This document shows positions 2,495 to 21,244 of a stretch of 64,000 nucleotides of DNA, in pieces. The position numbers were made by a program, and so were the translations under genes. The first letter of the stretch is position 1; every line of letters begins with the position of its first letter. This DNA is from Dyadobacter sp. 676 (GTDB lineage Bacteria > Bacteroidota > Bacteroidia > Cytophagales > Spirosomataceae), in assembly GCF_040448675.1 (NCBI RefSeq), contig NZ_CP159289.1, positions 5,067,001 to 5,131,000 on the forward strand, read 5' to 3'. The notes beneath the pieces were generated by a model. The model saw nothing but the letters and a program-made list of their open reading frames with translations, ran no database searches and had not been told where the DNA came from.

Positions 2495-3778
2495 TTACAC
2501 CTGCTGAGTAGCCGAAGTGCGAGCGCCTTCCAACAACAGCCACATCGCTTCCCTGCAAATCTTCTCCGCGTCGATCATCGGCAGAAAGCTTTCGTGAGAG
2601 CAAAAGGAGAAGTCCATTCGTCCGGCGAAGGTACTTACTACCAGCGTGTTTGGATTACGCCAGGGAAAGCCTACGGAGGGACTGTGTATAGCACGAACGC
2701 TGAAATTGTTATACGTCGCCGGTATGTCGAGGATACCCATGTTGGAGATAGTGAGGTCGTGGCTACCCTTGGTGGAACGCATATGGCGCAGCAATGCGCC
2801 GGTTGAGCTGTGAAAGTATTCGGTAATGAACATCATCTCCGCGGCATTCACCTTTTCGGCCTTCTCTACAAGATCGTCCTTTAACCGGCGGGCTTCGGAC
2901 CAAAAATCGCGTTGCGCGTCTTTTTGCGCAAGCGAAAGTTCGACGATCGGCGCAAATGCGAACAGGTGATCGCGGCCGATCGCTGGCAAATAGCGACGAA
3001 TATCGACGGGGCTAATGACCTTATTCCGAGCGGATTTCCCTCTTACCGACTGGTGCGCCAGCAATGAAGCGGTGCACAACGCAGCCTGGACGGTCGTTTT
3101 CTCGGCCTTACATTTCCTGACGAGCGCGTTGGTCGTGTCGCGATCGAGCGTGTGCGTGAGAAAATAGAAGTTGCCCGGGCGAGGGGTTGGCTTCGGATTC
3201 AAGACGGCAAAAAGCCCCTTGGCAAGTGCCGAAAACAGCTTTCCCTTCCAATGGATCACTTTGCTGTTACGGACCGACGCGGGCACCAGCGAATCAATCG
3301 ACAGAATGCCTTCGTAAGGTTCCAGGGGCACCTCGGGATCGTCGAGCAGCGTCAGCAGCTCACGCATGAGCGTCACAAACCCCGAGCCGTCGCATACGCA
3401 ATGCGGGCACACGAGCAACAAATCGGAAACGGGTTCCGACCGCAACCATATCAGCCTGGCCGCCGGCCCGTTTTCCAGATCGAATCGTTTCTCCCATTCC
3501 CGCCGACTGACGTCCTGCCAGTGAATGTCGGATGTCCTGTCGGTTACCTCCACGGGGATAGGCTGCACCTGCGGATTTGTAACAAATATCGGGACATTTG
3601 TCTTGCTTCTCCGGACATTGGTCCTTAATAGCGGATGCCGGTTTTGTATTTTAGCCAGGGCTTCGTTTACCTGTTCAAGGGAAATATTTCCTTCGATAGT
3701 GGCCGTAAAAACGCAGTTCACCGGGGCAAGTCCGTCTGCATACATAATACGCTCCCCGACAATCATCTGTCTGTTCAT
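2495..3778 (-). CDS. HxxxD (condensation/PapA-type) acyltransferase 1
   Basis: A 427-aa protein of the condensation-domain/PapA acyltransferase superfamily. These enzymes move an acyl group from a carrier protein or CoA to a hydroxyl or amine. The catalytic HxxxD motif is H126-CVC-D130, preceded by a typical N-terminal half-domain (HPLLRT around 48-53). The length fits a free-standing transferase such as PapA5 and not an NRPS module. It is the last gene of the nine-gene minus-strand operon and starts one base after the stop codon of its paralogue. The three paralogues share length and active-site position, so they arose by tandem duplication. The likely role is O-acylation of the glycosylated lipid; the acceptor is unknown. 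Confidence 0.85.
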   Translation of the reverse strand: MNRQMIVGERIMYADGLAPVNCVFTATIEGNISLEQVNEALAKIQNRHPLLRTNVRRSKTNVPIFVTNPQVQPIPVEVTDRTSDIHWQDVSRREWEKRFDLENGPAARLIWLRSEPVSDLLLVCPHCVCDGSGFVTLMRELLTLLDDPEVPLEPYEGILSIDSLVPASVRNSKVIHWKGKLFSALAKGLFAVLNPKPTPRPGNFYFLTHTLDRDTTNALVRKCKAEKTTVQAALCTASLLAHQSVRGKSARNKVISPVDIRRYLPAIGRDHLFAFAPIVELSLAQKDAQRDFWSEARRLKDDLVEKAEKVNAAEMMFITEYFHSSTGALLRHMRSTKGSHDLTISNMGILDIPATYNNFSVRAIHSPSVGFPWRNPNTLVVSTFAGRMDFSFCSHESFLPMIDAEKICREAMWLLLEGARTSATQQV

Positions 3779-3779
3779 T

Positions 3780-5054
3780 TCAATCCGTAATGCTAATAGG
3801 TTGGGCTTCCATTAAGTGTTGTCTGAGTAATGTCATGGCTGTTTCCGTAATGGATTTACCATCCTGACAGGAGATATAGCCTTCTTCGGAGTGAAATGCA
3901 AAGTCCATACGCCCGCCGAACGTCGAGACCGACACTTTGGACGGATTCCCCATCGGAAACCGCGACAGAGGGCTGTGAACGTCGGTAACACGTAATTGTC
4001 CGTAGGTTTCGCCGAGCGGAATGCGGCCGAGGTTGGCGAATGCGAAATCGTGCGCGCCCTTTCCGGCCCTGGCATACCGGATGCTTCGGGGATAAAGCGG
4101 CAAAAGGTATTCGCTGAAAAACAGCAGCTTGGGAGCGTTCGTTGCGGCTATCTGCTTGTACAGGCGGTTTTTCAATGCATTGGCCTGTTCACGAAAACCG
4201 GTACCGTCCGCAGGCGTTTTAAGTCCTACCATCGAAGGGAACGCAAACAGGTGATCTTTCGCGATTTCGGGTAAAAACCTGCGCATATCCACCGACGCGA
4301 ACATATTTCCGCTCGTGCGCACGGTACGCTGGAATGCGCGCATGAACACCAGGATCAGCGCCGTGTTGAGGTTAACGTCCTTTTCTTTGCACGCCGATAG
4401 CAATGCAGCCGTTTCTTCCGGGCCCAGTTTCCAGCGGATCGTGTAAAAACGGTCCTTTTTTACCTCTTTCATCCAGGCTACGGCCAGCAGGAACAGGCGG
4501 GTAACGCCGGCAAGGGACTTTCCCGCAAGGCGGTTGAGCAAATTGCGGCGGACATTGGCAGGCACGAGCGCTTCGGGGAAAAACGGCGGATAGGGTTGCA
4601 GGCAGGTTTCCGGGTCGGCGAGGCATTCGAGCAGCTCGCGCATGAGCGTCATCACGGAAGTGGCGTCGCCAATGCAATGGTGGCAAACGAACAACAGTTC
4701 GGAGACCTGCGGAGAGCGGACCCAGACCACCCTCGCAAGCGGTGCGTCGGGCTGGTTGAACGGCGTGTCCCATTCGGTTTCGGCCTCTGCCGCCCAGTCG
4801 TTATCCGAATGTCGCCCGGTAACGCGGAGCGGGATTGGCTGTATCGGCTCCCGGGTTACGTACCATGGGATGCCATCGGCGCCCGTTTCTACGGTGACCC
4901 GCAGGAACGGATGCTTTTGCTGCATTTTCCGCAATGCTTCACGAACGTCCGTTTCCTCGAAATACCCATCTACTGTCACCGGAAATACCACATTTACGGG
5001 CGTGTCGGCGCCCGCGTACATGGAAGCTTCCAGGAAACCCATTTTTCTTTTCAT
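3780..5054 (-). CDS. HxxxD (condensation/PapA-type) acyltransferase 2
   Basis: A 424-aa paralogue of the flanking genes. The active-site motif is H126-CIG-D130, at the same residue numbers as in acyltransferase 1. It has no transmembrane segment or signal peptide, so it should act in the cytoplasm or at the inner face of the membrane. Its start overlaps the stop of acyltransferase 3 by 4 nt, which suggests translational coupling. Three copies with intact but diverged motifs suggest different acyl or hydroxyl specificities on one scaffold, by analogy with the Pap acyltransferases of mycobacterial trehalose lipids. The function is inferred from the family and context. Confidence 0.85.
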   Translation of the reverse strand: MKRKMGFLEASMYAGADTPVNVVFPVTVDGYFEETDVREALRKMQQKHPFLRVTVETGADGIPWYVTREPIQPIPLRVTGRHSDNDWAAEAETEWDTPFNQPDAPLARVVWVRSPQVSELLFVCHHCIGDATSVMTLMRELLECLADPETCLQPYPPFFPEALVPANVRRNLLNRLAGKSLAGVTRLFLLAVAWMKEVKKDRFYTIRWKLGPEETAALLSACKEKDVNLNTALILVFMRAFQRTVRTSGNMFASVDMRRFLPEIAKDHLFAFPSMVGLKTPADGTGFREQANALKNRLYKQIAATNAPKLLFFSEYLLPLYPRSIRYARAGKGAHDFAFANLGRIPLGETYGQLRVTDVHSPLSRFPMGNPSKVSVSTFGGRMDFAFHSEEGYISCQDGKSITETAMTLLRQHLMEAQPISITD

Positions 5055-6346
5055 AAACGCACGGAATCTGTCACGGCAACGGTTTGAAAAAGGATTTGCA
5101 TAGCCTTTTCGCGGATTTGCATGGCTGTTTCGCGGGGCAGGAACGCTTCGTTCGAGACAAACGAAAAATCCATCTGTCCGTTAAAAGTAGTGGTAATGAT
5201 CGTGTTCGGGTTGGCAAATGGCCCGATCACCGTCGGGCTGTAAATCGTATCGATCGTGAAGTTCCGGTACCTGGAGGGGATATCGAGCTTGCCCATATTG
5301 GAGAACATAAAATCGTTGCCTACTTTGGCGTAGGTCAGAAACTCGCGCAATCGGCGGACCGATTTGTGCGATGCCTCCATGATCATGGTGAATTCGTAGG
5401 GATTAAGTTTCGCCATTTGCCTGGAAACATGCTCCTGCAAGGCTTTGGCCCTCGCCCAGAAACTGGTGCCGATGGATTGTGCCAGATCTATATTCAGCGC
5501 GAGGCCGTATGAAAAGAGCATGTCGCGTTTCACCTCCGGCATGTAGCGGCGGATATCTACGGGGCAGGTCGCCTTGCCATGCGAACCTTCGCCATTTATG
5601 GCCTTAAATGCCTCGAGCAAAGCCAGACCGATGGCGGTATTCACCGTTACGCTTTCTTTTTTACAATAGGCGAATAGCGCTTTCGACTGGTTGGCGGCAA
5701 GTTTCCAGTTGATCAGGTAATCGCCCGAACGCGGGGCTGGTTTTTGTTTTTTATTAATAAATAATGAGCCTAACGCCAACCCGGCATGAACCAGCGCGGC
5801 GGAAAGTGTGGCTTTGAGCCGGCTGCGGCGATTATCCAGTATTTCGGCCGGTATAAGGTCGCGAATGCTTCCAAATACCGGTGCTTTGCCGATCTCGGCC
5901 TGGGGATCGTCCAGCAAGGTCAGCAAATCCGTAAGCAATGCCACGCCGGAACCGCCGTCGCACATGCAATGATGGAAAGCCATAACCAGGTCGGAGACCT
6001 CCCCGGAGCGGACCCAGGTAACGCGCAGCAGCGGACCGTTCTTTATATCGAACGAAGTTCCCAGCTCGCGGACCGTTTCGCGGTTCCAGTCGTGGTCACC
6101 TGTCCGTTCCACGATCCTGAGCGGGATATGCGGCCGGGAAACCGGGATGTGAAAATACGGTGCTCCATGGGCATCGGTGCCGATGGCCGTTTGTAGCATC
6201 GCATACTTTTCCTGCAAGCGGGTGAGTGCGATCGTCAGCCGCACATGGTCGATCTCTCCATTGATTTTGAGGGCATAAACCCCGTGGAATGGCTCGGTAC
6301 CATCGCCAAACAGCACTCTTTCGAGGAAAAGCAGGTTTCGTTTCAT
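5051..6346 (-). CDS. HxxxD (condensation/PapA-type) acyltransferase 3
   Basis: A 431-aa third paralogue and the first of the acyltransferase trio to be transcribed. The motif is H126-CMC-D130 in an AFHHCMCDGGSG context. It begins only 3 nt after the preceding glycosyltransferase ends, so glycosylation and acylation genes are co-transcribed. A short basic insert (KKQKPAPR) lies near residue 200, where the other two copies also vary. I see no carrier-protein domain, so the acyl donor is presumably the discrete ACP, the synthase ACPs or acyl-CoA. Confidence 0.85.
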   Translation of the reverse strand: MKRNLLFLERVLFGDGTEPFHGVYALKINGEIDHVRLTIALTRLQEKYAMLQTAIGTDAHGAPYFHIPVSRPHIPLRIVERTGDHDWNRETVRELGTSFDIKNGPLLRVTWVRSGEVSDLVMAFHHCMCDGGSGVALLTDLLTLLDDPQAEIGKAPVFGSIRDLIPAEILDNRRSRLKATLSAALVHAGLALGSLFINKKQKPAPRSGDYLINWKLAANQSKALFAYCKKESVTVNTAIGLALLEAFKAINGEGSHGKATCPVDIRRYMPEVKRDMLFSYGLALNIDLAQSIGTSFWARAKALQEHVSRQMAKLNPYEFTMIMEASHKSVRRLREFLTYAKVGNDFMFSNMGKLDIPSRYRNFTIDTIYSPTVIGPFANPNTIITTTFNGQMDFSFVSNEAFLPRETAMQIREKAMQILFQTVAVTDSVRL

Positions 6347-6349
6347 CCG

Positions 6350-7551
6350 TTAGGCATTTTCGGTTACACGGTGGACAAGCGCGAAATCTTCGAGGAGCGA
6401 CACGGCTTTGACATTACCGCCTGCCGCCTGGAAAGTATCCCGGACATGCTGCGCCGCCTTGCGGTACTTCGGGTTTTCGAGCAGTTCCCACATGGCGTTT
6501 TTCACGTCGGCGACCCGGAGGCGTTTGTATCTCACCTTAATCCCGCAGCCCGCACGCTCGATCAATGCCGCGGTGTGGAAATGGTCGTATGCGATGGGCG
6601 TGATAAGCATCGGCAGGCCGTTCATGAAAGTGTCGTTCACCGTGTTGAAGCCCCCGTGGCAGATTACGGCGTCCATTTTAGGAATAATCTCCGCCTGGGG
6701 CACGAAGCCCTGCACAATAAAGTTTTCCGGCCATTCGTCGATTACCGACGGATCGGTAGCCGCCACGATGGTGATCGGCTCGTTGCCGAATGCTTCGATG
6801 AGTTTCAAAAAAATTCCCTGCGGATATCGACCAGCAACGTGCCGAGCGATACAAATACCTTAGGTGTAGTGGCTTTTTCAAGCCTCTCCCAGTCGAAAGG
6901 GGTGTCGTTGGGCCGGCCATTCACAGGGCCTACGAACTTCATATGCGGTTCCGGGTCGGGAAAACCGGCGAATTCTCCCGACGTGAACACGATATTCATC
7001 CGGTGCGAATGGATCACAAACTCGTCGGTATAAATGCCCAGCTCGCGTTGAAGGCCTTTGATCAGGTTCTGCTGCCACTCGAAGATCCTGGGCGCCGAGT
7101 TGGCGGTATCGCCCATTACATCGGGCGGCACGGGCGTGGTCGTGACGCACGGAATGCCTTTGAGGTACGCGACCAGCGCGCCGGCGAAGGTAATGCAGTC
7201 GTTGACGATCACATCGGGCTGGAAGTCGTCGCTCACGCGCGAGACGCCGGGCACCATCATCCGGGCAAAGGGAATATAAGTTTCTTCCAGGGCAAGTTTC
7301 ATCACTTCCGGACCCGACAGGGATGGCCCGTCGTCCTGGCGTTTCAGGATCCGGTCGATCTCGTCCCGATGCGGTGCGAGCTCCTCTTCCGGCAGGATGT
7401 ACCGCCCGCCTTCCGGAATGTGTTTGTCTGAAAGGGGAATAAGCCCGGTCCACGCCACTTCATGGCCTTTGGCAAGCAAGCTGGCGCCCACGCTGAGGGT
7501 AGGGCTGATATGTCCGAAAAAAGGAGGTACTACAAATAAAAATTTAGCCAT
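6350..7551 (-). CDS. GT1/MGT-type glycosyltransferase 2 (frameshifted)
   Basis: A UDP-glycosyltransferase of the GT1/macrolide-glycosyltransferase type, about 400 aa once a one-base gap is repaired. The N-terminal acceptor domain begins FVVPPFFGHISPTLSVG. The C-terminal donor-binding region reads CHGGFNTVNDTFMNGLPM. The frame breaks at a run of seven T (minus strand) near 6810; eight T restores EFFLKLIEAFG, which matches the intact paralogue next door. Three ATGs (7575, 7563, 7551) lie in a tandem 12-bp repeat. I chose 7551 because the neighbour begins MPKYAFIVPP at the equivalent place. It overlaps the upstream stop codon and probably adds a second sugar or acts on a different acceptor. Confidence 0.82.
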
Positions 7552-8752: not shown

Positions 8753-8798
8753 GGTGCCGGGTTATTATCATTCCCCAGACCAAGTCCGGGGCTGAGGA

Positions 8799-9614
8799 TT
8801 ATCTATTATCTACTATGAATTTCTCAAATCCATTTCCGTCGACTTCAGTCAACGGCCGTCTGAAAAATTCTGTCAATTGTTTTCCGATGATTTCCGGTTG
8901 CTGCACGGGTACATTGTGATCGCCGGGAGCGAGTACCAGCCTCGCGTTTCGGAGTTTTGCGGCCAGTGTGTGCCCGGAGGGGACGCAATTCGACATTTCG
9001 CCGTAAATCAGCAATGTCTCATGCGGAATCGCCGCCACCGATGGGTCGTCGAAGAACGTTTTCTCCGATTCCATGTCCGACCGGATGGAAGTCTCATTGA
9101 ACAAAAACTCATACATCCGGTGATTTTTTTCCAATTGCCGCTTGCCTGCAAGCAGACGTGTGGTGTCGGCGAAGTTTTCGATGTAATGGATCAGAAACTC
9201 CTTGCTGTATGTATCGATGATCGCCAACGTTTCCTGTTCGCTGGGATCGGGACCTTCGATGACCGCCAGCTTGCCTACGCGCCCGGGGAACCGGGTGGCC
9301 ATTTTCAATGCCACGAGCCCGCCATAGCTGTAACCGGCCAGATGCGCCGAGCCGATACCGAGCGTGTCCATCAGGTCGCTAAGGTCGTCGGTCATCGATG
9401 TCAGGTCGTAGCCGGTCCGCACTTTCTCGCTCATGCCGTGACCTTTCATATCGAACAGCACCACGCGGTAATGCGCCGCGAGCATAGGGGCGATATTGAA
9501 ATAGTATACAGCCAGGTTGCTGAACATCCCGTGGATCATAATGATCGTCTCCGGGCCTTCCGGATTCAGCTCCTGTACATGCAGGCGAACGTTTGGCAAG
9601 GTGATTACTGGCAT
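8799..9614 (-). CDS. Alpha/beta hydrolase (thioesterase-like)
   Basis: A 271-aa alpha/beta-hydrolase-fold protein. The oxyanion region is MIHGMFSN, the nucleophile elbow GYSYGG has Ser96, and a C-terminal GDHN supplies the His. I chose ATG 9614, which starts MPVITLPNVRL and overlaps the ACP stop codon by 10 nt; the longer in-frame start at 9686 would add 24 unconserved residues lying across the ACP gene. Directly after an ACP gene and inside a synthase operon, a serine hydrolase is a good candidate for releasing the acyl chain (type II thioesterase or chain release), though acyl transfer is also possible. Confidence 0.85.
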   Translation of the reverse strand: MPVITLPNVRLHVQELNPEGPETIIMIHGMFSNLAVYYFNIAPMLAAHYRVVLFDMKGHGMSEKVRTGYDLTSMTDDLSDLMDTLGIGSAHLAGYSYGGLVALKMATRFPGRVGKLAVIEGPDPSEQETLAIIDTYSKEFLIHYIENFADTTRLLAGKRQLEKNHRMYEFLFNETSIRSDMESEKTFFDDPSVAAIPHETLLIYGEMSNCVPSGHTLAAKLRNARLVLAPGDHNVPVQQPEIIGKQLTEFFRRPLTEVDGNGFEKFIVDNR

Positions 9615-9904
9615 TCCCGGATGTAATTGATAATGTCTTCGAGTTTCAGCTGGATGATTTCGTCCAGGTCCATGTTCGACAGCCAACCGGTGAAATCGAT
9701 GTTCGGTCCGAAATGGTTTTTGACTTTTTCCGAAAATGAGACGATCTCTATACTGTCCATTTCGAGGTCTTTGGTAAACGAGCTGGCAGGCGTGATATCC
9801 ATTTCCTCCACAAACTCCTCGCCAATTACCTCAGCGATGAACTGGTTGAGCGTTTCAAAAACTTCCTCCTTGCTCAGCTTGTTTTCTTGTATCAGTTGGT
9901 CCAT
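9605..9904 (-). CDS. Free-standing acyl carrier protein
   Basis: A 99-aa acidic carrier protein with the phosphopantetheine attachment motif in DLEMDSIEIV (Ser about residue 52) and predicted helices either side. It overlaps the preceding synthase by 13 nt and the hydrolase by 10 nt. It differs from the two near-identical ACPs inside the large synthase, so it probably has a distinct job: starter loading, or presenting the finished chain to the glycosyl- and acyltransferases. Activation is probably by the PPTase domain fused to the gene just upstream. Confidence 0.9.
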   Translation of the reverse strand: MDQLIQENKLSKEEVFETLNQFIAEVIGEEFVEEMDITPASSFTKDLEMDSIEIVSFSEKVKNHFGPNIDFTGWLSNMDLDEIIQLKLEDIINYIRECQ

Positions 9905-12900
9905 CCGATGATGTAATTAAAATGTTTGATAGTATTGATCCAGGTGTCCTGAATGCGTAATGCATTTTCTTTAATTTCTTCAATCTGATAAGCCCTGGGG
10001 TTACCCATAAGCCCTTTTCCCAGCATTTTGCCGAATGCTTCCTTCGCCACCCAGCAGCGGGTCATCCATTCGTCCTGGTCCCGGCCTTCCAGCAGCGCCA
10101 TTTCCAAAGGTGTGAAAACGATCTCCGTGAAACCTGAGCTCCGCGGTTGTATTTCTTCGATATCGATCCCCACCGGACCTTTGTCGCTGGCAATCGCGAC
10201 CGCTTCGAGGTTCTTATGAGCCAGGGAAATATGAATGCCTCCGGTCATCGGGCCATCCAGGAACGGCTTGCCCACCCCGTCGGAACGGATTTCGAACTCG
10301 ATCGGAAAGTAAGCTTCCCCCCGCGAGCGCAGCAGCAGCATACGCGTGGCATCCTTGGCCGCGACCCGACTGATCATCCATTCCTTCTTTTTATTAGGCA
10401 TCAGGCTTCGCTGGTGCTGCTTTTCGGGCTGGTTAAAATATCTTTTTAAAATAAAATCCCACGAAACAACACGCTGGTAAGCATTGCGGAAAAGGAACAC
10501 GCCGGGCGCCACTTCTTCCGAAAGCACGTTTTGCAAGGGTGCCATCGATACGTTCCAGAGCTTGTCGTCGATTTCCAGACGGCGGTTTTGCCAACCACGG
10601 ATGATCGACCACACTTCGCCGTCGCGTTTGAGAATGAAATCGGCGGTGGCGAATTCGTCGGTGAGCTCGGTAAGGCGGCAGGTGCATTCGAAAATACCCG
10701 CCTGGTCCTCCATTTCGCCGTAGAATTCCACTTCGTTGATCTTCACCGGGAAGGCGATCCGATCTTTGGTCAATGTCAGTTGCAGCCACAGCCCGAAGAG
10801 TTGGCCCGCGTTGTCGAGCAGAGAGCCCTTGCCGGCGCTGCCGGAAATAAGCCCGGTAATACCGTTCCGGGCGATGCTTTTTACCTCCCGGATACCCTGG
10901 TAAGCGGGGCCATGGAACATATTTTCGCGGTAAATCTGCTCGGGCGTAATGGTTATACCGAGCGACTCGCCGATATCGTAACCGGTTGCTTCGGGTACAC
11001 CCTTCGTTTCCGAAAGCTGCACTTCCGCATTCGCGTATTTGTCAAGGTCGAGGTAAACGAGGGCAGGGTTTTTCCATTCGCCGGTCACGGTTTCGCGGAA
11101 GGGCTCCACCACATTCATCCATTGGAATACCTTGATAGCCATGATTTTCTGTACGCGCAGCCCGGGCGCCTGCTCGCGCGCGATGTCGCCGAAAACTTCG
11201 AAGATCATTGTCATTGGGATTACCGGGTCCATATCCTCCACACAATGCCAGCCCGGCTTTTGTTTGAGGAGCGAATGGTCGATGAGCCAGGGGCTGTTTT
11301 GCAGGGATACGTCGAGCTGTTTTTTAAATGGCGCGCGCTGTGCGGGCTGTTTAATGGTCTCCGGCCGGACGTTGGCGCGTGCGGCAGGTGCCGCTACCGG
11401 CCGGTTACGGATCAGTCCGGCGATTTCCGACTGCACCAGTGCAATTTCATGCAGGTTGGCCGACAATGCCCGCATCACCGGATTTGCCACGTCGTCGAGC
11501 GCAAGCTCCTTTTTCGGCTGGTGCACCGTAATCTTTTTAAGGGAATCGAATGATGTCACGAATGGAGAGCCCAATTGCAGCTTCATTGGTTTGCGCGCCG
11601 TTTGCTGCGCCCCGACGCCCATGAATGTGAGGTCGATCGCCTTGCCTTCCACGAACAATGCGGCCATCACGCGCTGGATTTGCTGTAACCCGCCGCGGAT
11701 CGGTACATTCGAGGCGATGGCGCTGTACGATTTCCCTTTCAACGTGTCGTCTACGAAGCCTACAAGCCCGCCCGAACCTACCTGCACGAACATCCGGACA
11801 TTCTCGGCATACAATTTGTCGATCAACTCGCGGAAGCGCACCGGTTTCACAAGGTGCTCGATGCTAAGCGAACGGATTTCGTCGAATGATTCCGGATAAA
11901 GGTCCAGCGTCGTGGCCGACCACAACGGAATACCCGTTTGCCGGAATTCCATCGTTTCGAGCCCGTCCAGTATCCGGTCCAGCTTGTCCTTGACGAAAGG
12001 CGAATGGAAGCCGGACTGGAACGGAAGCTGCTGATGGAAGATCTGATGCGCGCGGAGAACGGCCGAGAAATCCTCGACAGCTTCGACGGTACCACAAAGG
12101 ATCACCTGCTGCGGGCAATTGTCGATCGACAAATAAATGTCGGGACGTCCTTCGAGCCAGGGTTTCAATTGATCGTAGCCGCAGCCCACCGCGAGGAACC
12201 GGGTGTTTTTGACTTCGAAAAGTTCAGGGTTTAGCCGGGTAAGAAGTTGCAGTACGGACGCTTCGGAGGCCAGGCCGGACGAGCGCCCGGCAAGCCATTC
12301 GCCGAGACTGTGACCTGCATTCATATCGGGTTTTACACCCAGTTTTTTAAGGGCCGAGTCGAGAATCCTGCTTTTTTCGAGCAGCTTCATGGCTGTGTTG
12401 AAAACCGATTGTTCGCCGGTCGTCCCGTTGGTTTCGAACCGGGGCAGGTTAAAGTAATCCGCCACGCTGTCTGTTTCTCCACCGGCAAGGCCGTCGAGAC
12501 CAGGGAAGATGAACGCGGTTTTGCCGCCGTTGGCCAGCAGAGGTTCGTAGGTGTACCAGATATCCTGCTTATTCCGCCAGACATTGTTTTTGGAAACTAT
12601 CTTGATAGCCTTGGCAATGCGTTCGGGAGTCGGCTCGAAAACGGCCACGCGGTAATTGCCGCTGCCGGTTTCTTTTTCGCCGGCTTCCAGCGCTTTGAGC
12701 AATGCTTCGTGCGTCGGTCGAGCGAGGAGTAAAACTTCGTCGCGGGCCGCGACATTCGGATCCCCCCCCTGTTGCAACAGTTGCCCGCTTTTTAGGACTT
12801 TTGTCCCAGCCTTCCAGCACAATATGCGCATTAATACCGCCAAAACCGAATGCATTCACCCCCGCATACCGCGGCAAACCCGATTGCTGCCAGTCGGTAA

Positions 12901-14200
12901 GTTGTTTTACCGGTTCGAAACGCGTATTGGCTAACGCCTCCACGGGCTCTTCGCAATGCAGGGTGGGAGGCAGTTGGCCGTGATACAACGCCAGGACGGC
13001 TTTGATAACCCCCGCAATGCCAGCAGCAGGCATCGCATGGCCTATCATCGATTTAACCGACCCGATTCCCGCTTTGGCTCCACCTTGCCCGAAAACTGCG
13101 GCAAGTGTTTCCAGCTCGGTTTTATCGCCCAACGGCGTGCCGGTTCCATGTGCTTCGAGATAGCCGATCTCGTTGGTACTGATACCGGCCATTTCCCAGG
13201 CCTGGCGGATGGCTTTCACCTGGCCGTGCACGGTAGGGCTCATTACGCTCGCACCCGCGCCGTCGCTCGATACGCCCACTCCCTGGATCACGGCATAAAT
13301 ACGGTCGCCGCCGGCAATAGCGTCCGAAAGTCTTTTTAATACAATGAAACCACAGCCCTCGCCGATAAGCAATCCGTCGGCACGCCGGTCGAACGGCCTG
13401 ATCTGCTGGTTTCGGGACAATGCGCCCAATTGGTGGAATATGCTCCAGAACGGTGCGTTCTGGCATGCGTGTACCCCGCCGGCGATCATCATATCGGCCC
13501 TGCCTGAGTTCAGTTCCTGCACGGCATGATCGATCGCGATCAACGAACTTGCGCAGGCCGCGTCCAATGTGTAAGCGGTACCGCCGAGGTCGAGGCGGTT
13601 GGCCACCAGCGACGCCGTCAGATTAGGAATGAGGCCCATCGCGGTATCGGCTGAAAAACGGCCTTTTTTTTGCTGAAATTCCTTTTTTACCCTTTCGAGG
13701 TCTTCGCTTTTGAGATCGGGAAGAATGTTCTGCAGCACTTCTACGATTTGCTGCCCGGTGCGCACGATCTCGATCGCGCGGGTCGCCCCGGGACCGGTGT
13801 AATTGCCTTTACCGATGATAATTCCGGTTTTGGCAAAATTGGCGCCATTAGTGAATGCGCGGGCGTCCGCCAATGCTTTGTGCGCCAGGCTGAGGGCAAG
13901 CAACTGCTCAGGCTCGGTGCCTTCCACGGCCAGTGGCAATATGCCGAACTGGATCGGGTCGAATTCGGCGTAATTGTCTATAAAACCGCCGCGCCGGCAG
14001 TAGAACCGGTCGGCAGCCATTCCGACGCCCGGCCCGTTTTCTTCAAAAAACAGGCCGCCCATCCGGTTTTCGGGCACTGTCTCAATGGCGTCCACACCAG
14101 CGCTGATGTTCTCCCAGAAGGCCCCCAGATCGCCCGCCCCCGGAAAAATACCCGACATTCCGATAATGGCGATATCTGCATTTCTTTTCATGATGGTCAC
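9892..14200 (-). CDS. Multidomain synthase KS-AT-DH-PPTase (frameshifted)
   Basis: About 1435 aa once one base is removed from a run of eight G (plus-strand C run 12762-12769). Domains in order: ketosynthase, residues 8-465, with Cys216 (DAACASS), His351 (EAHGTGT) and His388 (IGHAMPAAG); acyltransferase about 560-850 with GHSLG; double-hotdog dehydratase about 970-1215, with His in PWLIDHS and Asp in LLDNAGQ; and a Sfp-type phosphopantetheinyl transferase about 1290-1420 with GIDIEE and WVAKEAFGK. The PPTase presumably activates the ACPs of the system. The order resembles parts of PfaC and of enediyne or HglE-type synthases. It begins 24 nt after the first synthase ends. KS and AT are repeated in the partner, so the two proteins probably form one iterative complex. 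Confidence 0.9.
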
Positions 14201-14224
14201 AATTTGTACAATGCTTCGGGCACA

Positions 14225-17200
14225 CTATTCGGCCATGATCAGCACCTGGCTTTCGGTTCCGTATTTCAGTTCATTGACAAATGTTTCCATGCCGTCGCCC
14301 AGCGGGATCAGCGGGATACCGCGGCGTTCGTATTCCCTTTCGAGCGAAGGCGATACCATGCCGGTACCCTTCCATGGCCCCCAGTTGATAGCCGTTACCT
14401 TGCCCTTGATTTTCTTTTGAAGCTCGCGGGCATATTTGTCCAGCACGCTGTTGGCCGCCGCATAGTCGGTTTGCCCGCGGCTGCCGTACACCGAGGCCAC
14501 GCTCGAAAACAGGGTCACGAATTGTACGTCATCCCTCAAATGCTCGGCCAGGACGCGCAGAGGGGTCACTTTGGTCGACATTACGCGCTCGAACGATTCC
14601 GGCGTTTTCTGATGGAACAGTTTGTCTTCCAGTAAGCCTGCGCCATGGATCACGCCGTCGATGCGGCCAAATTGTTCGTATAAACCTTCCACCATCGCGA
14701 TCAGCGCTTTTTCGTCACGTAAATCCAGCGAATGGTAAGTAACGGTCGAGCCATTTGCTTCCAGGGCGGAAATGGTGCCGAGGATCTGGTTGGCTTTGTA
14801 TATTTCCTCCGTCTTTTTCTCGATTTCGGCCGGCGTTTTGATCTGCCCCGACGCAATGAGCCGTTTACGGATTTCTTCTTTATTCTTCAAACCGGCCAGC
14901 GATTGGTCCTCCCGGCTACGCGGGTCCGGCGAGCGCCCGACGAGCACGTAATGGCAGGGATAATCCTTCGAGAACCGCACGATCAGCTCGGAAGTAATGC
15001 CCTGTGCGCCACCCAATGCAAGTACCACCGATTTTTTGTCCAGATGAATGTCCGGATCGGCGCCGGTCGGGATTTCGGAACGGATCAGTTCGACGGTTTT
15101 CCGCTGGTCGCCTTCGTACACAACTTCACAAGGCTCGTCGGTGTGAAGTATTTCGTTCAGTGTCACCGACGCGATTTTCCCGGCCGGAAGCTGCGAGGTA
15201 ATGCTGATAAGCCGGCACTTGGTTTGATCGTATTCCTTGTCGAGGCTTTTCAGAAGTCCGGCGTATCCCTGGAAATGGCGGAGCAGCTTTACATCGGTAT
15301 CCTTATCGAGCGCGCTCTGGGTGTCGGACACTGTGTAAATCCATTTCACCTTGCTGAAATCGAGCTTTTTGATCAGCGAGAACGACTCGATGATAGTCGG
15401 TTTCAGTCGCGAAGTGAAAATATTCAGGATAATGAGCCCCTCGAAGCCCTGCAACGATTCTTCGGTCGAAATAATGCTTACCGTCGCACCATGCTGCTCG
15501 AAAAGGGCTTTAATGGATGTCGCTACGTCGCCGGCATCGTCGGTGACGGCGAAACGTTTCCCTTTTATCGCAGCCGGGTTGAGGGCCGGGATAACCGACG
15601 GCGTCAGTTCGAACCTGAGGCGCGAGAGTTTTTCGTTCAATGCAGCTTTCGGGACCGGGGTTACATTCAGGCTTTCCGCTTTTTGAATGGAGTCCTGCGC
15701 ACCGGAAAGTGCTTCCGAGAGCCAGTCGATCAGCCCGTTCAGCGTTTTGATGGATGCCAGTTTTTCAACCAGCTCTTCGCCGCGTTCCTGATAGATCTGG
15801 ATGAGCCCGTCGATATTGTTTTTCAGTTCGCCGATAATCTCCATGCGCTTGATGGAGTCGATGCTCAGGTCGGCTTCCAGGTCCATATCCATGCCGAGCA
15901 TTTCCTGCGGATAACCGGTTTTGGCACTTACAGCCTCCAACAGCACGGATTTAATGCGGCTTTCCGACCATTCCTCGATGATGCCATCCTGCGTAACCGT
16001 CAGTTTGCTCAATGGTACATTCCCGGTAACCGGGGCACTCTGCTGTTGATGCTCGGTGATCCAGTTGATCAATAAGTTCAAAGTTTTGATGGCAGCTAAT
16101 TGCTCGATTATCGTTTCCTCATTCTGCGGGCCGGCATCGAAGCCGCCCAGTTGTTTGCGCAGCTCGCCGATGATCTCCATGCGTTTGATAGAGTCGATGC
16201 TGAGGTCGGCTTCCAGGTCCATATCCAAACCGAGCATTTCCTGCGGATAGCCGGTTTTGTCGCTGATCACCTGCATCACCAATGCTTTCACATCGATTGC
16301 GGCCGGTCTGGCGACGTTCGTTTCCTGCGCTGTCACCGCTTTTTCTATCTCGATCGGTACCGGCGACGGTGCATTGGCAGCGAGCCCGCCCAAAGCAGCC
16401 GGTTCATAGACCTCGATATTTCGCGACGGAGGCACCGACTGGCCGAGGTAACCCAATACGACATCGCGCTGCGCCTGGATCAGGTATTTCACGCTGTTGA
16501 GGTATTCGTGGATCACGCGTTCGGCCTCCGTGCCGCCCACCGGGGCCGCTGCCGGCTGGCGGAATGCGGCGAGTTGGAGCGGCTCGGTTACGGGCATTGC
16601 GCCGTGCTCCGGCAGTTTGCCGTGGAGCGGAAGCGCCATTTGGCCGTCCACTATCCAGGTAGTGAGGCTCTTGCGGTATTGTTGCGGTTTGTCGAGATCG
16701 AGGAGGCGCGCGTCGCGGTCTTCGAACAGTTTATTGAAATCAATATTTCTGCCTGTGGCAACGTAGCCCGCCAATGTGTGCAGCAGCTGCGTAATGCCCC
16801 CCTGGTCTTTGTCTTCGGTGTAGAGGCAAATTTCTTCCTTGCCCAAAATCGATCTCGTGAGGCCTGTAAGCACTTTGCCCGGGCCTACTTCGATGAAAAT
16901 GCGTGCACCGTCGTCGTACATCTGCGCGACTTCTTCCGAGAAGCGCACCGGCCTCACGAGATGATCGGCCAGACGTTCCTTGATCGCCTCCGGTGAAGCA
17001 GGGTAGGGAGCGGCGGTTGTGTTCGACCACACGGTCAGCGACGGTTCGCTGAACCGCACGTCGCGTAATACCTCGGCATATAAATCTTTCGAACCGGCCA
17101 GAAGCGGGCTGTGGAAGGCACAGGCTACTTCCAACTGGCGGAAGGAGATTTTCAGTTCGGTCAGTTTTGCGGTGAGTTCGGCTATGGCCGGCGTTGTACC

Positions 17201-20200
17201 GGCAAGCACCCACTGGCGCGGCGAGTTGTGGTTAACCGGGTAAATGTGGTTAATCTCCGAAACGATGCGGGTCAGTTCGTCCTCGGGGCAATTGACGGCT
17301 ACCATGGCTCCATTATCGTCGCCGATCGCGTCAAGAATCGATTTTGCGCGTTTTTCGCTGAGGGTAACCAGTTGGCTGTCCTCGAATACCCCCGCGAAAC
17401 AAAGTGCCGGCAGTTCGCCGTAGCTGTGGCCGGCCACCATGTCGGGGTGTATGCCAAAATCTTTCAGCAAATCGGCGACGGCGAGGTCCACTATACCCAG
17501 CAAGGGTTGCGCGACGCGCGTGTCCCTGATCTTCTCCTTCTGCGCTTTGGCCGATTGCTCATCGAAAACGGCATCGGGAAAAATGATAGGTTGATACGAA
17601 GGGTGTTTTTTCAACAGCTTCCGCATCGCCGGGAACGCAACGAAGAGCTCGCGTGCCATATCCACCCGCTGGCTCCCCTGGCCGGGGAACATAAATGCAA
17701 CTTTGCCGCCCGTTGCTTTAGTATAATAAATACCCTTTGCTTCCGTGCCGGATTGTGCAATATTCAGCTTAGTAAGTGCATCCGCGTGGTTTTCGGCGAT
17801 AATACTCAGTTGTACAGGCTTTTCACTGTACAGGTTCAGGCTGTTGGCGACGTCGCGCATCGAAACCGATTCGTTTTCGAGAATGTCGTGAGTGGCCTTC
17901 GCAAGTTTCTGCGCCTCGGCTAGTGTTTCCCCGCGGAAAATCAGCATTTCGGCGGGCCATGCCTTCACCGATTTTCGCGGTTTTTTCACAGGGGCACTTT
18001 CGATAACGGCATGGAAGTTTGTTCCGCCGAACCCGAACGCGCTGATACCCGCCACCCGGCGGTTATCGGTCCACAGCGCGGGTTTGGTCTGGAATGCAAA
18101 TGGGCTGGTTTCAGGGTTATAGTAAGTGTTCGGCGTTTTCAGGTTAATGGTCGGCGGTTTGACACCATGGTACACGGCGAGCGTCGCCTTGATGAGGCCT
18201 GCGAGGCCCGCTGCACATTTGGTATGGCCGATCTGCGTTTTGACCGACCCCAGATGAGTTTGGGCGACCAATGCTCCGGAGGCCAGCATCATTTCGGTCA
18301 GTGCGCTGAGCTCGGTTTTGTCTCCCACTACCGTGCCTGTGCCATGCGCTTCCACAAGGCCGAGTTCGGCCGGAGAAATGCCCGCCTGGTCATAGGCACG
18401 TTCCAGCGCTTTTACCTGTCCCGACTTGCGCGGCGCGGTGAGGCCCAGGCTTTTGCCATCGCTCGATCCGCCTACACCTTTGATTACCGCATAGATCCTG
18501 TCGCCGTCGCGCAAGGCGTCCTCTTCACGTTTCAGAACGACCATCGCAACGCCTTCGCCAAGCGCGATACCATCGGCTTCGGCATCGAAGGTGGCACATC
18601 GGCCCTTGCGCGAGAGCGCGTGGGTGCTGGAAAACATCAGGTAGTCGTTAATGCCGTTGTGAAGGTCGGCGCCACCGGCGAGGACCATCTCGGAGCGGCC
18701 CAATACGAGCTCCTGGCACGCCAGGTCGATGGCAGCCAGCGATGAGGCGCAGGCTGCGTCCACAGTATAGTTCCGGCCGCCCAGGTTCAGGCGGTTGGTG
18801 ATACGGCCCGAGATTACGTTGGCCAGCACGCCGGGGAACGAATCCTCGGTCAGTTTGGGCAGCGCGTCGTCGAGTTCTTTGGGTATTTCACCAAAAAATT
18901 GCGTAAAAAGGGAGCGGAAACCGTAATTATTTGCGAGGTCGTTACCGCCTTCCGCACCGATGATCACGGATACGTTTTCGCGGTTGACGTCGTCGCCGTA
19001 CCCGGCGTTTTCCAGCGCCTGCTTCGCTACGAGCAAGCTCAGAAGCTGGGTCGGGTCGATAGCCGCCAGCGATTGCGGCGGAATGCCGAATTCTACGGGA
19101 TCGAAATCGATCTTTGGTATAAAACCGCCCCATTTCGAATGCGATTTGCTGCCGTCCGAAACGGTGGGGTCATAGTACAGCGCCTTGTTCCAGCGATCGT
19201 CGGGCACTTCGGTTACCCAATCCCTGCCGGCCAGGATATTGGCCCAGAACTCTTCGATATTCCGTGCTCCCGGGTAAATGCAGGCCATACCTACGATGGC
19301 TACATTCAATGCTTTTTTCTTCCTTCTGGGCGCTTTGGGCAGAGAAGCGCCTGCAATATGCGCATAATGACCGGTTGCTACCTGCTCGTGCAGCTCGTTC
19401 ATGGTCATTATTCTGTCGAGCATGGCGGCTGCCTGCCCGATCATGTACATGCCGCGGCTCATCTGTTCTGCCGGCCCGATCTCGACCAGATTGCCGGCCT
19501 GTCTTTCAATGCCTTTGGCGGCGATGCGCAGGCGGCCTACATTCAGTTTTTCCAGTTCGGCCCAAATTTCCTTTTTATCCATACCGGCCGCTTCCATCCG
19601 GGCTTTCTCCGCATTGAAATCGGAAGCGAAAGGAGAGTCGAGGCAGCGGGTCTCGTGGCCGGGAGCTGTTTCGAGCAGGACGGTCTCCGTCTGCTTCAGA
19701 GCCTCGGCCTGAAATTGTGGCAGAATGGCGCCGGTAGCGACCGCTTCCTGCGTGTACAGATAAGCCGTACCCATGAGCACACCCACTTTTACGCCTCTTG
19801 CCGCTAACGGCGCGGCCATCACGGAGATCATGGCTGCCGAAAAATCGTCATGGATTCCCCCGGCGAAGAATATTTCCAGCTGCCCGGTTTGCTCTTCCTG
19901 CAAAAGCCGGTTGATCTGTTTTTCCCAAAGCACAAAGCTGGAAAGCGGGCCTACGTGGCCACCGCATTCGCGGCCTTCGAAAATAAACCGTTTAGCCCCT
20001 TCTTTCAGGAACATATCCAGCAATGGTGCGGAAGGCACGTGCAGGAATGTTTTGATACCCAGTTTTTCCAGCGGCTTGGCCTGTGATGGCCTTCCGCCCG
20101 CAATGAGCACCACCGGCGGTTTTTCTTCGGTAATGTATGAAAGCTGCTCATCCCGGAGTTCCTGGTCGGCAAAACCGAGGATACCGACGCCCCACGGCTT

Positions 20201-21244
20201 GTCGCCCGCCAGTTCGCGGGTTTCGCGAATGAGGTTACGGGCCTGGTCGCCTTTCAGCAGCGATAATGCCACGAACGGCAATGCGCCCGCATTGGCAACC
20301 GCCTGTGCGAACGCCGGAACGTCGCTCACACGCGTCATAGGCCCTTGCGCGATCGGGTAGCGGGTGCCCAGCGCCTGTGCGAGCGTGTTGTGCGCAGCAA
20401 GCGGGTTCAGGTTTTTAGCCTGGCGCAGGTGTCCGTACATCGCTTCCCTGAACGCGAAAACAAGACGCGGAAGCTTTTTATATTGTTTTACAAGGTCGGT
20501 TCCGATGGCAATGTCCTGCCCGAGTGGAATGTACCCTTTGTCGAGGTCTGCCGTGTGCAGGAACGGTTGCAGGTCCCCCAGCGTGGGTTGCGCGGGCAAT
20601 GCCGGCGAATTCGGACGAACGAGCACGCGGAAGCCGTCGATTACACGTGTTTCGTTGCCGTTGAGTTTCTCGCTCACAGCCTTTAACGAAGCCGGTGCCG
20701 AACTTTCGGGAAACGGCAATAGCTGGCTGTCGAGTACAACGCCGCTGCCGCCCAGTGCGGTAATGGCCGCGGCATTGTGGATTCCAATCCCGCCCTGTAC
20801 CCACACCGGAATGTCGCTAACTTCTTTCATTATACGTTGGAAAAGAATGAAAGACGAGTCGTTGCTGACCGGCCCGGCGCCTTCGTTGCCTTTGGCGATG
20901 ACGCCCATGGCCCCTTCGGCTTTGGCCTGCCGCGCTTCGGCTACGCTGCGGACCTGGCGGATAATCCGGATGGAATTTGAAAGGTTAGGAAAAGTCAGAC
21001 CATATGGTAGTATTGCTAAGGTTACTTGCTCAGGTAAAGAAATTGTTAACGGCGTGTTTTCGGAGAAGCATACGCCGAAGGGCTTTCTGCTTCTGGAAGT
21101 CATTTTTCCCAGTGCGTTCGTAGCGGTTTGTTGATCTCGTCCGAGGTGGATTACGGGGAAAGCTCCTGCTTCCGACAGCGCTAACGCAAGGGGCACGTCC
21201 GGCCGCTCCATCGGGCTAACACCGATCATTTCCAGGTTTTTCAT
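14225..21244 (-). CDS. Giant PUFA-like synthase NMO-NMO-KS-AT-ACP-ACP-KR
   Basis: A 2339-aa type I synthase. Residues 1-210 and 285-600 are two nitronate-monooxygenase/PfaD-like TIM-barrel regions; the second holds the FMN-enzyme motif ECGGH (His430). Ketosynthase 645-1080 has Cys832, His967 and His1007. Acyltransferase 1180-1490 has GHSYG with Ser1274. Two nearly identical carrier domains have Ser1685 and Ser1797 in DLSIDSIKR, the motif of PUFA-synthase ACPs. Ketoreductase 2070-2290 has GGAQGIT and Tyr2261 in YAAAN. It is like PfaD fused ahead of PfaA. With the partner DH it could run full reductive cycles. It is the first gene of the operon. The chain length and reduction state cannot be read from sequence. 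Confidence 0.92.
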   Translation of the reverse strand: MKNLEMIGVSPMERPDVPLALALSEAGAFPVIHLGRDQQTATNALGKMTSRSRKPFGVCFSENTPLTISLPEQVTLAILPYGLTFPNLSNSIRIIRQVRSVAEARQAKAEGAMGVIAKGNEGAGPVSNDSSFILFQRIMKEVSDIPVWVQGGIGIHNAAAITALGGSGVVLDSQLLPFPESSAPASLKAVSEKLNGNETRVIDGFRVLVRPNSPALPAQPTLGDLQPFLHTADLDKGYIPLGQDIAIGTDLVKQYKKLPRLVFAFREAMYGHLRQAKNLNPLAAHNTLAQALGTRYPIAQGPMTRVSDVPAFAQAVANAGALPFVALSLLKGDQARNLIRETRELAGDKPWGVGILGFADQELRDEQLSYITEEKPPVVLIAGGRPSQAKPLEKLGIKTFLHVPSAPLLDMFLKEGAKRFIFEGRECGGHVGPLSSFVLWEKQINRLLQEEQTGQLEIFFAGGIHDDFSAAMISVMAAPLAARGVKVGVLMGTAYLYTQEAVATGAILPQFQAEALKQTETVLLETAPGHETRCLDSPFASDFNAEKARMEAAGMDKKEIWAELEKLNVGRLRIAAKGIERQAGNLVEIGPAEQMSRGMYMIGQAAAMLDRIMTMNELHEQVATGHYAHIAGASLPKAPRRKKKALNVAIVGMACIYPGARNIEEFWANILAGRDWVTEVPDDRWNKALYYDPTVSDGSKSHSKWGGFIPKIDFDPVEFGIPPQSLAAIDPTQLLSLLVAKQALENAGYGDDVNRENVSVIIGAEGGNDLANNYGFRSLFTQFFGEIPKELDDALPKLTEDSFPGVLANVISGRITNRLNLGGRNYTVDAACASSLAAIDLACQELVLGRSEMVLAGGADLHNGINDYLMFSSTHALSRKGRCATFDAEADGIALGEGVAMVVLKREEDALRDGDRIYAVIKGVGGSSDGKSLGLTAPRKSGQVKALERAYDQAGISPAELGLVEAHGTGTVVGDKTELSALTEMMLASGALVAQTHLGSVKTQIGHTKCAAGLAGLIKATLAVYHGVKPPTINLKTPNTYYNPETSPFAFQTKPALWTDNRRVAGISAFGFGGTNFHAVIESAPVKKPRKSVKAWPAEMLIFRGETLAEAQKLAKATHDILENESVSMRDVANSLNLYSEKPVQLSIIAENHADALTKLNIAQSGTEAKGIYYTKATGGKVAFMFPGQGSQRVDMARELFVAFPAMRKLLKKHPSYQPIIFPDAVFDEQSAKAQKEKIRDTRVAQPLLGIVDLAVADLLKDFGIHPDMVAGHSYGELPALCFAGVFEDSQLVTLSEKRAKSILDAIGDDNGAMVAVNCPEDELTRIVSEINHIYPVNHNSPRQWVLAGTTPAIAELTAKLTELKISFRQLEVACAFHSPLLAGSKDLYAEVLRDVRFSEPSLTVWSNTTAAPYPASPEAIKERLADHLVRPVRFSEEVAQMYDDGARIFIEVGPGKVLTGLTRSILGKEEICLYTEDKDQGGITQLLHTLAGYVATGRNIDFNKLFEDRDARLLDLDKPQQYRKSLTTWIVDGQMALPLHGKLPEHGAMPVTEPLQLAAFRQPAAAPVGGTEAERVIHEYLNSVKYLIQAQRDVVLGYLGQSVPPSRNIEVYEPAALGGLAANAPSPVPIEIEKAVTAQETNVARPAAIDVKALVMQVISDKTGYPQEMLGLDMDLEADLSIDSIKRMEIIGELRKQLGGFDAGPQNEETIIEQLAAIKTLNLLINWITEHQQQSAPVTGNVPLSKLTVTQDGIIEEWSESRIKSVLLEAVSAKTGYPQEMLGMDMDLEADLSIDSIKRMEIIGELKNNIDGLIQIYQERGEELVEKLASIKTLNGLIDWLSEALSGAQDSIQKAESLNVTPVPKAALNEKLSRLRFELTPSVIPALNPAAIKGKRFAVTDDAGDVATSIKALFEQHGATVSIISTEESLQGFEGLIILNIFTSRLKPTIIESFSLIKKLDFSKVKWIYTVSDTQSALDKDTDVKLLRHFQGYAGLLKSLDKEYDQTKCRLISITSQLPAGKIASVTLNEILHTDEPCEVVYEGDQRKTVELIRSEIPTGADPDIHLDKKSVVLALGGAQGITSELIVRFSKDYPCHYVLVGRSPDPRSREDQSLAGLKNKEEIRKRLIASGQIKTPAEIEKKTEEIYKANQILGTISALEANGSTVTYHSLDLRDEKALIAMVEGLYEQFGRIDGVIHGAGLLEDKLFHQKTPESFERVMSTKVTPLRVLAEHLRDDVQFVTLFSSVASVYGSRGQTDYAAANSVLDKYARELQKKIKGKVTAINWGPWKGTGMVSPSLEREYERRGIPLIPLGDGMETFVNELKYGTESQVLIMAE

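Follow-up and report, generated by a model that had tools for sequence, protein, structure and literature searches.

Described systems that resemble the nine-gene minus-strand operon of Dyadobacter sp. 676 considered here include the phenolic-lipid synthases of Azotobacter and a gene cluster of Pedobacter. The operon occupies positions 2495-21244 of the window, that is, of the whole stretch of 64,000 nucleotides that was analysed (bases 5067001-5131000 of a genome assembled as one contig of 7.28 Mb). It encodes two iterative synthase subunits (PKS-A and PKS-B, for polyketide synthase), a free acyl carrier protein (ACP), an alpha/beta hydrolase, two GT1-family glycosyltransferases (GT1a and GT1b) and three HxxxD PapA-like acyltransferases (AT1, AT2 and AT3). 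A first-pass annotation had described this gene set from the letters alone; Pfam confirms it, and the active-site motifs are kept in relatives. Among synthase families whose product has been characterised, the nearest is Type P, which makes the phenolic lipids of Azotobacter. The Type P synthases are named ArsA and ArsD, and their chain is saturated. The Type P chain has been given as C22-26, and Beijerinckia has been counted as a Type P member, yet phenolic lipids were not found in it (PMC3098273). The same paper describes Type N synthases in Chitinophaga pinensis and Chryseobacterium gleum, which are Bacteroidota like the operon hosts; unlike the operon, Type N comes with no mention of sugar or acyl genes in the available text. 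The heterocyst glycolipid synthase (Type F) has been described as having a protein with a ketosynthase (KS), a chain length factor (CLF) and an acyltransferase domain (AT), and no dehydratase/isomerase (DH/I) domains (PMC3098273).

Reports also exist on related clusters in the Bacteroidota. A 2022 study of a soil metagenome proposed a glycolipid with two amino acids for biosynthetic gene cluster (BGC) 2 of Pedobacter cryoconitis, with no product given in the available text (PMC8742384). BGC2 shares with the operon an hglE-type PKS, a PKS-like protein, an alpha/beta hydrolase, two glycosyltransferases and two condensation-domain proteins, and a 4'-phosphopantetheinyl transferase (4'-PPT) appears in the figure legend. 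It differs in that the condensation proteins were read as similar to nonribosomal peptide synthetases (NRPS), and two ketoreductases, two cysteine synthases and a regulator are also listed. We consider BGC2 and the present operon to be the same family, as compared by gene list rather than by sequence; the first-pass annotation had called the product undescribed, which was too strong given so closely matching a gene list with a glycolipid already proposed. A Sphingobacterium hglE-KS region without a similar known cluster has been reported (PMC11446778), and Pedobacter is mentioned together with hglE-KS or heterocyst glycolipid in both PMC8742384 and PMC11446778. In Dyadobacter, a glycolipid has been reported in D. 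linearis and as lacking in strain UC10 (PMC12584681). The open-licence literature yielded no paper combining Dyadobacter with glycolipid and polyketide synthase, none combining Dyadobacter with polyunsaturated fatty acid (PUFA) synthase, and none combining Pedobacter with BGC, PUFA and glycosyltransferase; nor did it yield a paper naming what such clusters make. Two successive glycosyltransferases followed by acetylation, as in the pathway proposed below, are known from the sophorolipids of Starmerella bombicola; this system differs in being from a yeast and in using a P450-made hydroxy fatty acid, and a dedicated synthase is not mentioned in the available text (PMC11210130).

The operon is a real, conserved and apparently dedicated gene set for an acylated glycolipid. 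It connects an orphan iterative synthase group with a well-defined, conserved complement of sugar and acyl enzymes in the Bacteroidota and partly in Streptomyces. We give a probability of about 0.5 to the reading that it is a dedicated pathway for a multiply acylated diglycosyl long-chain lipid. This reading draws on the observed gene set, domains, active sites and conserved gene order, and its chemistry is predicted. The features are as follows, with the enoyl reductase (ER), ketoreductase (KR), dehydratase (DH) and phosphopantetheinyl transferase (PPTase) domains abbreviated.

14225-21244, minus strand: PKS-A, 2339 aa, with a degenerate ER-like barrel, an ER barrel, KS, AT, two ACPs and KR (Pfam)
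20438-21244, minus strand: PKS-A residues 1-269, the first ER-like TIM barrel, which has lost the catalytic His of motif III
19328-20398, minus strand: PKS-A residues 283-639, the second ER barrel, FabK/PfaD type, RECGGH intact
15839-16207, minus strand: pair of ACP serine motifs in tandem in PKS-A, with DLSIDSI at residues 1680 and 1792, each conserved in 24 of 24 rows
9892-14191, minus strand: PKS-B, with KS (active Cys), AT, PKS-type DH and PPTase, and one frame break at the 12762 run
10555-11346, minus strand: double-hotdog dehydratase of PKS-B
9605-9904, minus strand: free acyl carrier protein, 99 aa, PF00550
8799-9614, minus strand: alpha/beta hydrolase, PF00561, start placed by comparison with cluster L041
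7544-8752, minus strand: GT1a, GT1-family glycosyltransferase, PF00201/PF06722 over cut-off
6350-7551, minus strand: GT1b, second GT1-family glycosyltransferase, PF00201 over cut-off, frame break at the 6807 run
5051-6346, minus strand: AT1, HxxxD acyltransferase (HCMCDG), PF00668, solved structure 8s6l at 3.4e-19
3780-5054, minus strand: AT2, HxxxD acyltransferase (HCIGDA), PF00668, 8s6l at 9.4e-14, found in Dyadobacter only
2495-3778, minus strand: AT3, HxxxD acyltransferase (HCVCDG), PF00668 and PF16911 PapA_C, 8s6l at 1.1e-22

The table of other clusters comprises 23 entries (8 Dyadobacter, 10 Pedobacter, and genomes G046, G491, G706, G755 and G738), with a partial Pedobacter contig (L050) and the Dyadobacter genomes of the genus search without fetched flanks left out. 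PKS-A, PKS-B, ACP, hydrolase, GT1a, GT1b and AT1 are present in all 23 and AT3 in 22, the contig of G755 stopping before it. This comparison with related genomes, which the first-pass annotation had suggested, bore out a shared gene set: eight core genes stand in conserved order in Dyadobacter, Pedobacter and the five further Bacteroidota genomes. Other families of the phylum, whose synthases are about 60% identical, keep the same eight-gene order, which argues for more than chance. AT2 occurs in all 8 Dyadobacter clusters and in none of the 15 others; of the up to three acylations first predicted, the enzymes for two (AT1 and AT3) are shared across the clusters, and the third enzyme was found in Dyadobacter only. 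All nine genes are under purifying selection in three Dyadobacter pairs (dN/dS 0.028-0.148); in a fourth, more distant pair dS exceeded 2 or, for three genes, no value was computable.

The cluster is patchily distributed, in the manner of a secondary pathway. In the named collection, close relatives of PKS-A were found at 8 Dyadobacter loci (78-90% identity in the best segment) and 11 Pedobacter loci (60-63%). Counting the own genome each time, matches occurred in 12 of 48 genomes of the genus, in 2 of 395 of the class and, at E 1e-125, in 5 of 395 of the phylum (four full length, G641 over the KS-AT part only); among the matches listed for 150 genomes of the family, one other was full length (G046, 61%). 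These taxonomic draws overlap one another. The ER region alone (residues 1-640) matched 4 of 375 genomes at E 1e-40, every one a carrier of the cluster, and carriers fall in at least four Bacteroidota families (f1, f23, f42 and f55). Two partial matches, G121 (41%) and G641 (37%), both over the KS-AT part, were rejected as the same cluster; each has a different synthase and no matching glycosyltransferase or acyltransferase genes in the stretch examined. A membrane protein of 168-192 aa with 2-4 hydrophobic stretches follows AT3 in 14 of the 15 non-Dyadobacter clusters. The one member scanned (L062 11030-11539, 169 aa) gave a sub-threshold MgtE match and no Pfam family over cut-off. The protein was seen in none of the 8 Dyadobacter clusters, with about 0.1-0.9 kb downstream of AT3 covered.

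The synthase was compared with the described families domain by domain. Pfam assigned an NMO-type ER, KS, AT, PP-binding and KR to PKS-A, and its motifs (DAACAS, EAHGTGT and IGH in the KS, GHSYG in the AT, YAAAN in the KR, and the two ACP serines) are kept in 24 of 24 rows, strain 676 included. A structure comparison of the ER model covered mainly residues 268-638, and families outside those listed could match as well. Like PKS-A, the Beijerinckia PKS has two ER-like barrels (the catalytic His being kept in the second only), KS, AT, two ACPs and KR, and it aligns with PKS-A of D. fermentans at 39% identity across residues 6-1593. Its partner carries PS-DH and PPTase as PKS-B does, but without the KS-AT of PKS-B. 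The operon has the Type P layout of ER-KS-AT-ACP2-KR with a DH-PPTase partner, the partner here having the extra KS-AT. With Beijerinckia standing for Type P, the synthase is more like phenolic-lipid Type P than like PUFA or HglE synthases. In Beijerinckia, two KAS-III-type genes follow the PKS (the one scanned has a chalcone/stilbene synthase domain), together with transporter genes; its glycosyltransferase gene has no match to GT1a or GT1b at 1e-3, and no condensation-domain gene is listed. By Pfam, a linked type III PKS with a chalcone/stilbene synthase domain is absent from the operon. The degenerate barrel also occurs in related synthases of Streptomyces and three Alphaproteobacteria, and is possibly a built-in dimer partner.

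PKS-B is a single open frame of 1405-1467 aa in relatives. Pfam listed KS, AT, PS-DH (19.4 bits, under the cut-off of 23.7) and ACPS in it, and structure comparison identifies the DH model as a double hotdog of the PKS type, with its His and DNAGQ in 25 of 26 rows. The cysteine of the KS motif DAACAS[SA] is present in 24 of 26 rows, and the remaining two are fragments. Two PPTase motifs have been described, hShxH for Types M-P and R-T and x(G/D)xP for all types (PMC3098273). The first is present in all 25 covering rows (ISLAH in strain 676); the second is present in strain 676 (VGKP) and missing from 12 of the 25.

The first-pass annotation had labelled this synthase pair PUFA/HglE-like, and a PUFA or PUFA-glycolipid pathway has some evidence behind it. 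PKS-A has the KS-malonyl acyltransferase-ACPn-KR layout of marine PfaA (Pfa Type A/B), including tandem ACPs, and scored 1065.5 bits against NCBIfam TIGR02813 PfaA, over the cut-off of 1010.1. The DH/isomerase domains of PfaC are FabA-like, and beside the PfaC KS lies a CLF, a KS-like domain without the active cysteine. PfaC-kind DH/isomerase domains were not found in the operon; Pfam listed no FabA-like dehydratase at E 0.001, and the DH is PKS-type. PKS-B contains no CLF beside its KS and, by Pfam, no further KS-like domain, and this second KS retains its cysteine. The ER is moreover fused and tandem. We regard a PUFA pathway as very improbable. Nor does the operon follow Type F, since a DH fold is present. 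Membership of the synthase in either HglE or PUFA was rejected by the DH type, the KS cysteine and the lack of a CLF, and the earlier label falls with it; the Beijerinckia Type P member aligns along most of PKS-A.

Relatives on plasmids were sought with PKS-A in a tblastn search, which gave 704 records at E 1e-50. Two, both Streptomyces, span at least 80% of PKS-A (98%, at 41% identity), followed by Methylosinus (79%) and Beijerinckia indica pBIND02 (76%), both at 40% identity; two plasmid records (H16 and H18) are without annotation over the match. The plasmids of Streptomyces sp. NBC_01243 and NBC_00984 carry the A and B subunits, ACP, hydrolase and a glycosyltransferase in the same order as the operon. 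Identities of NBC_01243 to the D. fermentans proteins are 38% for B, 29% for the hydrolase and 25% for the ACP. The single glycosyltransferase (37% to GT1a and 31% to GT1b of L041) is followed by a methyltransferase, and no acyltransferase is annotated alongside in the PLSDB gene table, which is incomplete. The cassettes lie on large linear plasmids (L101 11971-26945 and L105 8971-23942) and have identical ACP and hydrolase protein accessions.

The enzymes downstream of the synthase are conserved at their active sites. The free ACP has its serine motif LEMDSIEI in all 25 rows, two of which come from G491, and the hydrolase has GYS[YF]GG in 25 of 25. All 24 rows of GT1a have GH[IV]NP and end the donor motif in YDQ, and the donor motif of GT1b (396-438 aa in relatives) ends YDH in all 24 covering rows. 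Both have a UDPGT-type C-terminal domain and conserved motifs, as members of the UDP-sugar GT1 family, of which we take the donor motif and the N-terminal catalytic His to be marks; the macrolide glycosyltransferase subfamily TIGR01426 scored 178.8 bits, under its cut-off of 260. By analogy with plant enzymes, YDQ and YDH could point to different sugars. In 3 of the 23 clusters (G706, G755 and G738) GT1a and GT1b are a single protein of 800-801 aa, as would be expected for consecutive steps.

All three acyltransferases are single-domain proteins of 424-431 aa with HxxxD. The glycine that usually follows the aspartate (HxxxDG) is missing from AT2, which has HCIGDA in 8 of 9 Dyadobacter sequences and HCICDA in the ninth. 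Condensation is the top Pfam family of all three, and Pedobacter cluster BGC2 was read in this sense (PMC8742384), so that the proteins might add amino acids and give an amino-acid-bearing glycolipid. We think this extremely improbable, since by Pfam the operon has no adenylation domain, the proteins are single-domain, and for each of them the best solved-structure match, 8s6l, beats the best solved NRPS condensation domain by at least 9 orders of magnitude in E-value. The NRPS reading was rejected for want of an adenylation domain; nor did Pfam show a carrier domain in the acyltransferase proteins. The match 8s6l is named phthiocerol/phthiodiolone dimycocerosyl transferase and is of PapA5 type. 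The three thus resemble the mycobacterial Pap enzyme PapA5 in the HxxxD motif, the standalone protein and the best solved structure, but they differ in scoring far under the NCBIfam PapA5 cut-off (31.5-35.3 bits against 396). PF16911 PapA_C (cut-off 30) scored 38.8 bits in AT3 and 25.3, below cut-off, in AT2, and was unlisted in AT1.

In a tree of 55 rows, from which the broken L056 AT1 was excluded and for which the program warned of long branches meeting, AT1, AT2 and AT3 form separate groups (supports 100/99, 100/100 and 98/90), AT2 with 9 rows. Because the groups are separate, AT2 would seem to be an old extra copy rather than a recent duplicate. The acyltransferases evolve more rapidly than the synthase does: relative to L041, their median identity within Dyadobacter is 79-85% against 91%, and outside it 41-44% (AT1 and AT3) against 60-61%. 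A search of the own genome with AT3 found the three cluster genes only, and across 241 genomes of the order it matched the own genome (G000) and one distant sequence (G955, 29% identity, E 1e-20). On plasmids, 27 records had relatives of AT3 at E 1e-5, all under 60% identity and one from Hymenobacter. In the three neighbourhoods inspected (two Nostoc, one Crinalium) there was no type I synthase with an adjoining glycosyltransferase, and these loci were rejected as the same system; the Crinalium relative sits among aromatase/cyclase and methyltransferase genes.

In the pathway we propose, PKS-A and PKS-B would together form an iterative synthase like the ArsA and ArsD of Type P producers, its ACPs activated by the PPTase at the end of PKS-B, and would make a long, largely reduced acyl chain that probably keeps a hydroxyl. 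The hydrolase would free the chain, or correct the synthase; GT1a would put a first sugar onto the chain hydroxyl and GT1b would add a second. Two PapA-like enzymes (three in Dyadobacter) would then attach acyl groups to the glycoside as esters, with the free ACP as their possible carrier, giving a multiply acylated diglycosyl lipid, perhaps in the cell envelope. The general prediction of the first-pass annotation, a long chain with one or two sugars and further acylation, fits the evidence and is strengthened by the conservation, the fused glycosyltransferases and the confinement of the acyltransferases to the locus in the own genome. As a tentative extension, to which we give less than even odds, there may be a new Bacteroidota class of envelope glycolipids in which a phenolic-lipid-type synthase works with two paired or fused GT1 enzymes and with PapA-like acyltransferases, these together taking the place of the type III PKS. 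Its multiply acylated diglycosyl long-chain lipids would be a Gram-negative counterpart of the mycobacterial acyltrehaloses, the third acyl group being a Dyadobacter addition. If the proposed pathway is right, its product would be a new lipid class, and the pathway would give PapA-like enzymes a function in the Bacteroidota and would correct the published NRPS-like reading of such condensation-domain proteins.

Several points weigh against the proposed pathway. Pfam found in the operon no hydroxylase or reductase domain that would make the glycosylation site, and a hydroxyl left by the synthase is therefore assumed. Editing or tailoring, as an esterase, is another possible role of the hydrolase. 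Enzymes of the AT3 kind have no general tie to such synthases, given the distant relatives in the 27 plasmid records of other groups. The PapA-like enzymes could also take the synthase chain itself as donor. In that case, as in the acyltrehaloses, they would load the chain from the synthase ACP onto a sugar or disaccharide assembled by the glycosyltransferases, with the chain as acyl donor and not aglycone. PapA5-type enzymes do take chains from a PKS ACP, and one of them is the best solved relative of all three acyltransferases; a fully reduced chain, like that of ArsA/ArsD, would also leave no hydroxyl for a sugar. Against this, the hydrolase stands between synthase and glycosyltransferase in the Bacteroidota and in the two Streptomyces records, which suggests release before glycosylation, and the Streptomyces cassettes list a glycosyltransferase but, in that incomplete gene table, no acyltransferase. 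We consider the acyl-donor route unlikely. Finally, two of the nine operon genes are broken in this assembly.

Seven of the nine genes are continuous. PKS-B is split over two frames, with the KS part from 14191 to 12569 and the AT-DH-PPTase part at 12855-9892, and the shift was located at 12762, where one base is repeated eight times. A single frame shift also interrupts GT1b, at a run of seven (6807). If both breaks were true mutations, the cluster would be decaying in strain 676 and the product not made there; genes are indeed broken in some relatives too, with L056 AT1 in two pieces (291 + 115 aa) and G885 PKS-A in two frames (1077 + 1317 aa). However, PKS-B and GT1b are open in the 23 other tabulated clusters (the G046 PKS-B as a frame of 1405 aa), so that assembly errors, though not proven, are likely. 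Outside the operon a neighbour gene at about 21785 is likewise broken, next to runs of six, and so is a gene at 42724 (listed break position 42756; frame of 459 aa). The latter has a GH95 C-terminal match below the Pfam threshold, and a search of 48 genomes matched 24 others, in which its counterpart measures 770-807 aa; 2 of the 24 have one stop inside the match. With four window genes broken at or near homopolymer runs and most relatives open, systematic indel errors in the assembly are probable. The genome has a completeness of 95.3, whereas all but two of 47 congeners reach 99-100. The other seven operon genes being intact as well, we hold decay in strain 676 to be quite improbable.

Within the operon, four of the eight junctions overlap, by 13, 10, 8 and 4 nt, as the first-pass annotation had it for the whole; gaps of 33, 46, 3 and 1 nt separate the genes at the remaining four. 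The Bacteroidota-type promoter pattern (-33/-7) had no match upstream of the operon or inside it. In strain 676 a convergent ABC transporter gene follows AT3; the ABC transporter genes occupy 44-2429 on the plus strand, with nothing in evidence tying them to the operon. On the other side, the plus strand at 27985-59632 encodes TonB-type receptors, DUF6298, an MGH1-like glycoside hydrolase, and Apiosidase-like and DUF5060 proteins, and looks like a glycan utilisation region.

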